A stretch of 64,000 nt of DNA from an uncultured Opitutia bacterium (lineage in GTDB: Bacteria > Verrucomicrobiota > Verrucomicrobiia > Opitutales > Opitutaceae). The translations under genes were made by a program, and so were the position numbers. Of this stretch, positions 36,526-42,135 are shown piece by piece (the stretch's first letter is position 1; every line of letters begins with the position of its first letter). The stretch is taken from the NCBI GenBank assembly GCA_903834135.1, contig CAILHZ010000025.1, positions 1 through 64,000 on the forward strand, in the 5' to 3' direction. A model generated the notes under the pieces. That model saw nothing but the letters and a program-made list of their open reading frames with translations. It had not been told where the DNA came from and searched no databases.

Positions 36526-37071
36526 TTAAGGGCTAAAATGGACGTCGTCTGGGGTAAAAAGGAGCCCATCTGGGCCTGCAGACCTAACTTCCATTCGCGT
36601 CCCTGACTCAGCATGAAAGAAAAAGGGATGGCCGTATCTATCGCAGAGTTCCCCATTCTTATTGATGGCTGGGTTATCTTGGCGAAGAAAAATTACGGCG
36701 TTTGGATTATCTCCTAATAAAGCTCTTACTAAGTCTTGATTGTTACCGACCGGATTTCCGGTTTTACGGTAAATGGATCTCCAAGCAGAAAGCATGGAGC
36801 AGACAATACCAACATCTTGCAGGAGTGTGTTACTAGGCGCATTCAAATTATCGGCTAAATGTGCTTCGGGTAATGACAGCATAATCTCCCGTTTTGCTTT
36901 CGGTGAAAGCTGTGCAGGAAAATTAGGTGATTTAGTTGAAGCGTTATGATTATCTGAAATATTTTCCAATGCTGCGGGAGCAGTGCTAAGTACGATGTAA
37001 CGATTCCAGACAAGAAAGGCTGTAGCACATATAACTGTGATGACTAATACTAGAGTGACTTGTTTCTTCAT
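36526..37071 (-). CDS. Hypothetical membrane-anchored protein, pseudopilin-like C-terminus
   Basis: 181 residues. One N-terminal hydrophobic segment (about 4-22) anchors or exports it. The C-terminal part ends with DRYGHPFFFH...VRSAGPDGLLFTPDDV, which resembles the calcium-loop end of type II secretion GspG-type pseudopilins (DPWGxPYxY...SxGPDGxxGTxDDI). It lacks the classic prepilin cleavage G-F-T-L-x-E near the N-terminus. Its start overlaps the DUF1501 stop by 4 bp (ATGA), so it is the coupled third gene of DUF1800-DUF1501-this gene. No function is known to me. Confidence 0.65.
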   Translation of the reverse strand: MKKQVTLVLVITVICATAFLVWNRYIVLSTAPAALENISDNHNASTKSPNFPAQLSPKAKREIMLSLPEAHLADNLNAPSNTLLQDVGIVCSMLSAWRSIYRKTGNPVGNNQDLVRALLGDNPNAVIFLRQDNPAINKNGELCDRYGHPFFFHAESGTRMEVRSAGPDGLLFTPDDVHFSP

Positions 37072-38474
37072 GCCATGAAACCTAAATCCGCATTAGAAAA
37101 ACGGCCTATATTTGGAATAACAGTCGACATATTTGTAGCAGAAACGCCGAACCACTTAGCAAGAGTTGAGCTATATTGATCTACGGCTGTACTAGGAATC
37201 CATCTTCCTCGACCTACATCATCTATACCGCCGAGTGTTAGACTTGGCATTGTTCCAAAAATATCGCCGCCTTTAATTGCCCCACCCATTATGATTTGAA
37301 TATTTCCCCAGGCATGATCAGTTCCACCAGAGTTAGGGGCGTAGGTTCTTCCGAAATCTGAAGCAGTAAATGTAGTGACTTGTTTATCAACTCCTAGTTC
37401 AACAGTAGCATTATAGAATGCGTTTAAACATGAGCTTAGGTCTGCAAGTAATCCGCCGTGCGATGCAAGTTGTGAGGCGTGGCTATCATAGCCTCCGACG
37501 TTTAAATAAAATATTTGACGCTTTAATCCTAGAGTTGGAGCTAAAGCTATCAGGTTTGATATCATCTTTAGATTATTGCCTGTATAGGTTGATGGAAATG
37601 CAGTTTTTAACGTAGGAGCTCCCTTAAGCACGGTATTCATATATTCTGCGCTGTTAGCAGCTGCAGAGGTTGTATTCGAGAAAGCCGAACCAAGTATATT
37701 TGTGTATGAGTTACCTAAGATCTGCTTAAGTCCTAAATATGCTTGGTTATGAAGTTGGGGATACCCAAAATATCCATCTAGTGGAGTGGCTCCTCCTCCA
37801 TTGAGTACATATGGAGATACGGATTGCCCTACCTGAAAAATATTAGTCCCTGTTAAAGAGAGATTCATAGATATACCAGGATTAGTATTCGATGAATTCA
37901 TTAGATCTCCTAAACGTCCTCCCCATCCAGTTTGTAGTATAGGTTGGTCAGAAATACTGCACTGCCACTGATTTGATTGATCTAAATGTGAGTACAACTG
38001 CAGAGGTAGTGATGAGCCTTTTTGATAGGAGTTTAAATCAGTAGGTGTTACCAGTGTTCCAACATTTGCCAAAAAGGATAATTTACCGTTAGAAAACAAC
38101 GATTGAATTTCTGGTATTTGAGGGTGAAGCGCGTAATTTCTACCATCTTTATATGTTTTAGGTGTTATTGGTAAAAGTGTTTTTTGATCTAGTGCTAGTT
38201 CAGCCCTTGCTTTGTTGTAGCTGCTGTAAGATTGGGAATCATATGGAATTAATGTATTACCTCCATCGTTTCCTCCTGATAAAAATACACATACAAGAGC
38301 TTTGTAATCTGTAGCTGCAAATGGCTGAGTAGAATTAATATTATCTGATGCCATCGCGCCTATCGCTTTGAGTTGCGAGAGACTAGAGATCATTCCAGCT
38401 GTGCCGAGTGCAGCACATGATGCATGTCCAATAAATGATCTTCTAGTTAAGGATTTTTTACTATTTTTAGACAT
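37068..38474 (-). CDS. DUF1501 family protein with Tat-type signal
   Basis: DUF1501 proteins belong to the alkaline-phosphatase/sulfatase-like superfamily and are usually paired with DUF1800 proteins; their reaction is not established. The N-terminus SLTRRSFIGHASCAALGTAG is a twin-arginine signal. Typical segments are CVFLSGGNDGGNTLIPYD and DFGRTYAPNSGGTDHAWG. The track begins at a TTG (38507) inside the DUF1800 gene; I prefer the ATG at 38474, one base after the DUF1800 stop, giving MSKNSKKSLTRRSF. It should be exported folded. Confidence 0.88.
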   Translation of the reverse strand: MSKNSKKSLTRRSFIGHASCAALGTAGMISSLSQLKAIGAMASDNINSTQPFAATDYKALVCVFLSGGNDGGNTLIPYDSQSYSSYNKARAELALDQKTLLPITPKTYKDGRNYALHPQIPEIQSLFSNGKLSFLANVGTLVTPTDLNSYQKGSSLPLQLYSHLDQSNQWQCSISDQPILQTGWGGRLGDLMNSSNTNPGISMNLSLTGTNIFQVGQSVSPYVLNGGGATPLDGYFGYPQLHNQAYLGLKQILGNSYTNILGSAFSNTTSAAANSAEYMNTVLKGAPTLKTAFPSTYTGNNLKMISNLIALAPTLGLKRQIFYLNVGGYDSHASQLASHGGLLADLSSCLNAFYNATVELGVDKQVTTFTASDFGRTYAPNSGGTDHAWGNIQIIMGGAIKGGDIFGTMPSLTLGGIDDVGRGRWIPSTAVDQYSSTLAKWFGVSATNMSTVIPNIGRFSNADLGFMA

Positions 38475-41400: not shown

Positions 41401-42135
41401 CGCAGAGTTTAGTGTTTGGGTAATTGCAGCACTCTGACCGACTGGTGTTTGCCAATCATCATTTTGAGCAATTACCGTACTTCCTGAATAAAGTTGCAAT
41501 TGTGGATTAGAAATAATTCCCGGCACTGCATAAGTTGCTAGTGTTGGTCCAACAGCTCTTATAAGTAAAATTCTAGAACCTAATCCCTGAGCTACGGATA
41601 TGCCTGCTGTAACAACACTACTGCCTGTACCTCCCACTTGAACCAGTGCAGATAAGTTTATAAGCTGTGTTGTTGTAGCTGTAACTTCATACATTTCAAT
41701 GATGGCATTTCCCGTTGGACTCACTCCCATGCCAGTTACTTTGGCTGTATAGTTGCCTGTTGGTAGAGTAACCACTACAGCTGCATCTTTAGAGCCAGCC
41801 GTAAGTGGGAAAGCTCCTACTTGGCTATATACGGATGCAAGTGCAGAATCCCAATTGTCATTTGTGGCTATTACATTACCATTACTATCATAGATAGTTA
41901 ATGAAGGATCTGCCATAACACCTGATATGCCAAAGGCACTGAGTGCTGGTCCAATAGCCCTTATAAGGACTTGTTTGGCTGGTCCCGCACCAATGGTAAA
42001 CCCAGCGGTTAGTGCGCTTGAACCTGTTCCACTCTGGTTGAGTACGGAAAGGTTAGACAAGTGTGCGGTCTGAGCAAATAAGGATAGGTTTAAGACTAAA
42101 AATAAACCTAATAAACTGAGGTTTTTAAACTTCAT
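38476..42135 (-). CDS. DUF1800 family secreted multidomain protein (CHRD and LamG domains)
   Basis: 1219 residues with a Sec signal peptide (about 1-21). Two tandem homologous repeats (about 25-155 and 158-297, with [13 protein letters not shown] and [13 protein letters not shown]) are followed by a CHRD-like domain (about 300-420), the DUF1800 region (about 435-935; [53 protein letters not shown]), and a C-terminal LamG/concanavalin-like domain (about 1020-1185). This combination suggests a large extracellular or surface-bound protein with carbohydrate-binding capacity. It precedes DUF1501 by one base, a conserved pairing. The molecular role of DUF1800 is unknown. Confidence 0.9.
   Translation of the reverse strand: [1219 protein letters not shown]

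Follow-up and report, generated by a model that had tools for sequence, protein, structure and literature searches.

Why should two genes of widespread protein families with no known role, DUF1800 and DUF1501, be followed closely by a third gene whose product resembles a pseudopilin of the type II secretion system (T2SS)? The question is raised by three minus-strand genes in positions 1 to 64,000 of a contig from an uncultured Opitutia bacterium (GenBank CAILHZ010000025.1, assembly GCA_903834135.1), the 64,000-nucleotide stretch that we analyzed and here call the window. An original prediction, made from the letters of the window, had described the genes as a coupled trio and the DUF1800/DUF1501 pair as widespread and without an established role. 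Both families are indeed widespread and role-less, but a link to chitin synthase has been published in the form of conserved DUF1800-DUF1501-chitin synthase operons of Proteobacteria (PMC5122149). DUF1501 modules have also been described in the Planctomycetes-Verrucomicrobia-Chlamydiae group (PMC4452313), and freshwater members of the Verrucomicrobia have been reported to encode PSCyt proteins (PMC5615132). In the literature that we covered, which leaves out most subscription papers, we found no account of the third gene, of a three-gene variant or of linkage to gspG-M. Here we describe a conserved three-gene unit that, in many relatives of the window's trio, stands directly before T2SS genes.

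Results

The tight coupling of the three genes can be read from the sequence: the DUF1800/DUF1501 junction is TAA-T-ATG, a 1-base gap, and the DUF1501/third-gene junction is ATGA, a 4-base overlap. A scan of GTDB genomes yielded 80 named loci of third-gene relatives, 79 of them in Opitutae/Verrucomicrobia assemblies, and 78 could be judged once two loci cut at a contig edge were set aside. The third gene lies directly after DUF1501 in 74 of these 78 loci, directly after DUF1800 in four and elsewhere in none; its position beside the pair is kept far more often than chance would allow. The coupled, conserved and exported trio of the original prediction therefore stands, and the pattern named as speaking against it, a third gene not conserved beside DUF1501 in relatives, is not what we observed.

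The association holds at several evolutionary depths. A second trio, in the same order and with 37-51% identity to the first, is located on contig C9 of the window's own genome (2.65 Mb in 26 contigs; C-numbers denote contigs of this genome and L-numbers individual loci). In relatives, the third gene stands behind a DUF1800-DUF1501 pair at each of the 15 uncut strong matches (15/15), and the same arrangement was found at strong matches in distant families of the class, plus one divergent match. Rearranged gene orders still keep all three genes, and the whole unit is also present as paralogous copies. Across the 38 nearest genomes, a hand count found the third gene beside 16 of the 19 trio-type DUF1501 genes that could be judged; likewise counted by hand, the compact-type pairs (DUF1800 of ~500 amino acids), about a dozen in all, never have it as a neighbour. 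At E 0.001, a level that also admits weak unlinked homologs, the third-gene profile finds matches in 79 of the 286 genomes sampled from the class; at E 1e-15 it does so in 45 of 388 from the phylum, and a single genome can carry as many as five copies. Pairwise distances of the three proteins correlate across 61 complete units (r 0.68, 0.73 and 0.92), as expected if the unit was inherited and duplicated together, although shared descent alone contributes too. One locus (L259) holds three DUF1800-DUF1501 units within 20 kb, in both orientations, at least two of them with third genes.

The T2SS link, which had been suggested tentatively, received strong support from gene context. Clustering of the genes neighbouring the 80 loci pointed to gsp genes following the trio. 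T2SS adjacency was then scored at the 77 loci whose downstream sequence reaches 900 bases or more, and in 25 of them (25/77) a true gspG comes directly after the trio. There gspH, I, J, K, L and M follow co-directionally to the end of the available sequence, and at many linked loci DUF3570 and apbE lie beyond the gsp genes. At L083, Pfam recognised T2SSG and T2SSM, found N_methyl motifs in each of the first four genes and scored T2SSK just under its cut-off. The window's genome has an orthologous kduI-kduD-gspG-H-I-J-K-L-M operon that lacks the trio (L297, 8227-15098, contig C22; names by eye and from comparisons). The order at L126 is kduI-kduD-DUF1800-DUF1501-third gene-gspG and onwards, and L124 and L113 each keep one of kduI/kduD upstream of the trio. 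In relatives the trio thus fills the kduD-gspG interval that is empty in the window's genome. In another family of the order, the trio at L045 (5869-9140) has two prepilin-type genes and one PilX-like gene downstream of it, possibly an independent case of linkage to prepilin genes.

The third protein was modelled with AlphaFold from an alignment of 81 sequences (pLDDT 90.6) as a membrane helix at the N-terminus, joined through a linker of lower certainty to a compact domain. Foldseek comparison of the model with the PDB returned three matches of probability >0.1, all of them major pseudopilins: two chains of Escherichia coli GspG (3g20) and calcium-bound PulG (5o2y), at probabilities of 0.84-0.94. 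When its profile was compared with that of 20 true GspG proteins from the same lineage, hhalign gave an E of 5e-6 over the last 37 columns, in agreement with the GspG-like C-terminal loop of the original prediction. The window protein itself matched no Pfam family, PF08334 included, and a PDB sequence search with it returned chance-level matches only. An ortholog downstream of a DUF1800-DUF1501 pair at L265 passes the Pfam T2SSG (PF08334) cut-off across nearly the whole domain.

In 3g20, calcium is held by the side chains of D117, T122 and D125 (PMC3396595), which in the loop alignment correspond to D168, T173 and D176 of the third protein. Across the 81 third proteins D168, D175 and D176 are invariant and T173 is conserved in at least 90%; the strict PERCAL motif G-x-D-G-x-x-[GN]-[TN]-x-D-D is matched by one of them, and the relaxed G-x-D-x4-[TS]-x-D-D by 77. 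A prepilin leader with cleavage site and Glu5 was found in 0/81 third proteins and in 18/20 true GspG. Its absence rules out a true pseudopilin in the usual sense, so that the earlier pseudopilin-like label fits the domain and fails for the leader: the product is a leaderless pseudopilin-like protein with a GspG-like domain. Verrucomicrobiota also contain other membrane-anchored proteins of GspG-like type, which form a wider family and have no DUF1501 neighbours (L266-L272, L274, L275); one scanned member passes the Pfam T2SSG cut-off. The idea that such proteins are exclusive to the trio was rejected for the weaker homologs, which are built alike, score above the T2SSG cut-off in some cases and occur where DUF1501 is missing.

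The first gene encodes a multidomain DUF1800 protein (PF08811, 263 bits against a gathering cut-off of 26) with CHRD (41 bits) and Laminin_G_3 (67 bits) matches and two N-terminal domains whose mutual alignment, of residues 21-152 with 153-294, shows 44% identity (E 1e-34), the composition that had been predicted. The core match covers profile positions 1-399 of 419 and is followed by LamG and then by the last segment of the protein; LamG therefore looks like an insertion near the domain end. The AlphaFold model of the core is mostly helical (pLDDT 83, pTM 0.88). Foldseek against the PDB gave it no match of probability above 0.03, and a PDB sequence search returned nothing. Among the Opitutae DUF1800 relatives scanned, CHRD is present in 40/40 and Calx-beta in 14/40. 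LamG occurs on the window protein and its closest relatives (L049 and L050), and DUF1800 proteins of distant trios bear PA14, GLEYA, PKD, Ig-like or H-type lectin (H_lectin) modules. Because a constant core carries exchangeable modules of predicted glycan-binding or adhesion function, the domain content suggests a surface role.

A relationship of DUF1800 to DUF1549/DUF1553 was considered and rejected (hhalign E 0.11, prob 0.5%, from a shallow alignment whose second set held 4 sequences). At L279 (5276-8554) and L280 (5124-8001), compact DUF1800-DUF1501 pairs are followed by a large protein, at L280 with DUF7453 and Ig domains, that ends in a repeat domain like the N-terminus of trio-type DUF1800; at these loci the repeat module is apparently encoded by a gene of its own. 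The window's genome also encodes a lone compact DUF1800 without DUF1501, near genes of sugar transport and sugar metabolism (L014, 5794-7287, contig C16).

The second gene matches Pfam DUF1501 (PF07394) with 91 bits against a gathering cut-off of 27. The RRxF motif of the predicted twin-arginine translocation (Tat) signal is invariant in 56/56 DUF1501 sequences, and the GGND, GG[WYF]DxH, SDFGR and DH motifs are kept in 55-56 of the 56. A DUF1501 tree resolves three well supported groups, namely the planctomycete type, the compact-pair type and the trio type, which forms one group with support 99; the deep order is unsure because long branches meet. The family as a whole aligns with the C-terminal half of sulfatases (hhalign prob 87%, E 4e-6), the trio type by itself weakly (E 7e-4, prob 27%), and a PDB sequence search with DUF1501 gave chance-level matches only. 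A check for sulfatase residues had been proposed, and the signature C-x-P-[STA]-R occurs in 0/56 sequences and a looser [CS]-x-[PA]-[STA]-R in 2/56. Identification as a sulfatase is accordingly not supported, the nucleophile signature being absent. At the level of sequence profiles, DUF1501 shows remote similarity to proteins of the alkaline-phosphatase/sulfatase superfamily. The kept motifs and the alignment of the family with the sulfatase half make a metalloenzyme-like fold likely. Four planctomycete-type DUF1501 genes were seen elsewhere in the window's genome (L159 3348-18643 and L160 1854-7634, contigs C8 and C24) adjoining PSCyt1-DUF1549-DUF1553-like proteins, so named by eye; in two of these clusters a PSCyt1-like protein with leucine-rich repeats comes next.

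The coordinates of the trio are collected in Table 1. Its neighbours in the window are mutS and an alpha/beta hydrolase gene (named by eye), and no chitin synthase or other polysaccharide synthase adjoins it there. In a promoter/terminator scan of the trio, matches were rarer than in shuffles, and the sole minus-strand terminator-like stem falls within the calcium-loop codons of the third gene.

Table 1. Genes and predicted features of the trio, in window coordinates.
Feature	Position	Strand	Details
DUF1800 multidomain secreted protein	38476..42135	-	1219 aa; open reading frame plus Pfam DUF1800, CHRD, Laminin_G_3
Sec-type signal peptide	42070..42135	-	22 residues; read by eye, no predictor
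Two tandem N-terminal domains	41236..42075	-	residues 21-152 and 153-300; mutual alignment
CHRD domain	40885..41187	-	residues 317-417; Pfam
DUF1800 core	39208..40788	-	residues 450-976; Pfam
LamG/ConA-like lectin domain	38710..39162	-	residues 992-1142; Pfam
DUF1501 protein	37068..38474	-	468 aa counted from ATG; Pfam; trio-type clade, SHxDQ motif
Twin-arginine signal (LTRRSFIGH...)	38370..38474	-	RRxF motif; TIGR01409 just under cut-off
Third gene, leaderless GspG-like membrane-anchored protein	36526..37071	-	181 aa
N-terminal transmembrane helix	36988..37068	-	residues 2-28; AlphaFold helix; no prepilin leader
GspG-like domain	36535..36825	-	residues 83-179; Foldseek 3g20, 5o2y; hhalign to GspG
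Putative calcium loop SAGPDGLLFTPDD	36544..36582	-	residues 164-176; corresponds to 3g20 Ca ligand loop

Discussion

The T2SS carries folded proteins that have been brought into the periplasm by Sec or Tat. As the trio supplies one candidate cargo of each kind together with an anchored pseudopilin-like domain, the simplest reading is that it forms an accessory T2SS module, in which DUF1800 and DUF1501 are an exported pair and the pseudopilin-like protein is their docking factor. We favour this reading tentatively, with somewhat less than even confidence. Conservation of the unit, the domain identities, the missing leader and the gspG-M linkage in relatives are direct observations, and the mechanism is our inference. 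DUF1800, with its glycan-binding or adhesion modules, would enter the periplasm via Sec, and DUF1501 would leave the cytoplasm in folded form by the Tat route. The third protein, predicted to combine an inner-membrane anchor with a calcium-loop pseudopilin-like domain and to lack a prepilin leader, would most likely join them in a physical complex and dock the pair to the pseudopilus or the secretion channel. The docked pair could then be delivered to the cell surface, where it may bind, and possibly modify, a polysaccharide as its glycan substrate. A bolder form of the proposal, which we consider rather doubtful, is that the third protein represents a new T2SS escort, a leaderless pseudopilin mimic dedicated to one Sec/Tat pair, and that multiple copies display different glycan-binding pairs.

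Several observations weigh against the accessory module. Adjacency to gspG is gene context and not proof of secretion, and neither trio of the window's genome lies beside T2SS genes. On the DUF1501 tree the gspG-adjacency label is clustered and changes four times; taken with the 39-89% identity among third proteins at gspG-linked loci, this makes the linkage old and mostly of one origin, and the clustered adjacency may reflect one ancestral event. The T2SS is nearly universal in the group: gspG was found in 37 of the 38 nearest genomes, some of which lack DUF1501 or DUF1800. The T2SS therefore does not depend on the trio, which is not a core part of it. For the third protein, the Foldseek E-values lie between 0.03 and 0.09 and no TM-score exceeds about 0.5, and its putative calcium role is read from residues.

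The main rival accepts the ancestry of the third protein without a present role in secretion. On this view the three proteins would form a glycan-handling complex, complete in itself, in the periplasm or at the cell surface; the third protein would be no more than a calcium-dependent membrane tether that arose by gspG duplication, and the nearby gsp operon of relatives a relic of that duplication; we regard this as possible, though improbable on balance. It would account for the many trios unlinked to T2SS genes, the two in the window's genome among them, for the missing leader, and for the related leaderless GspG-like anchored proteins that have no DUF1501 neighbour. Linkage that persists across such divergent third proteins is, however, long-lived for a neutral relic, and L045 provides a second, unrelated linkage to prepilin-type genes. 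The position of the third gene directly before gspG at 25 loci and its GspG-like fold could also indicate a structural or regulatory part of the pseudopilus, with DUF1800 and DUF1501 as accessory T2SS components rather than cargo. We think this unlikely: none of the 81 proteins has the prepilin leader, gspG occurs in several relatives that lack both DUF1501 and DUF1800, and several trios per genome, with up to five third-gene copies, are unlike a machine component.

An action of the pair on an exported chitin-like polysaccharide, with the third gene adapting it to verrucomicrobial envelopes, seems equally unlikely to us. Conserved operons with chitin synthase (PMC5122149) and the lectin-like modules on DUF1800 favour such a substrate, but no polysaccharide synthase lies near the window's trio, and among the largest recurrent neighbour clusters, not all of which were identified, T2SS genes were recognised and a polysaccharide synthase was not. 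That three unrelated exported proteins came together by chance or shared regulation is very improbable. In its favour, Pfam lists two of the three families as of unknown function, but the association is kept in 78/78 loci across divergent families, rearranged orders retain all three genes, and the whole unit has paralogous copies.

Overall, the original prediction is supported in part: the conserved exported trio and the GspG-like third protein hold, and the tentative T2SS connection gains support from gene context, while a usual pseudopilin and a sulfatase are not supported. For two widespread families with no known role, a strict third partner and linkage to gspG-M offer a testable route of the pair to the cell surface. 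If the accessory-module reading is true, a leaderless pseudopilin-like docking protein would be a previously unknown way of selecting T2SS cargo, a long-standing open question.

Comparison with known systems

DUF1501 as a family aligns with the C-terminal half of sulfatases and thus recalls the sulfatase/alkaline-phosphatase superfamily, but it lacks the C/S-x-P-x-R signature. Planctomycete-type clusters of PSCyt-DUF1549-DUF1553 proteins and DUF1501 likewise place a large exported partner, sometimes with LamG, beside a Tat-type DUF1501; the trio DUF1501 belongs to a different group, and the profile comparison, with its shallow alignment, detected no homology of the partner to DUF1800. With GspG/PulG (PF08334; 3g20, 5o2y) the third protein has in common the C-terminal globular domain and the calcium-loop residues, whereas it has no prepilin leader, has a plain membrane anchor that leads into a long linker of low complexity, and differs in the stretch before the D-R-W-G motif. 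The closest counterparts are the DUF1800-DUF1501(-chitin synthase) pairs, which consist of the same two adjacent Pfam families with a Tat motif on DUF1501. Compared with these, the trio-type DUF1501 forms a separate group, the DUF1800 protein is usually about twice as long and bears lectin/adhesion modules, and a third, GspG-like gene is added; where the operons of Proteobacteria continue with chitin synthase, relatives of the trio are linked instead to gspG-M.

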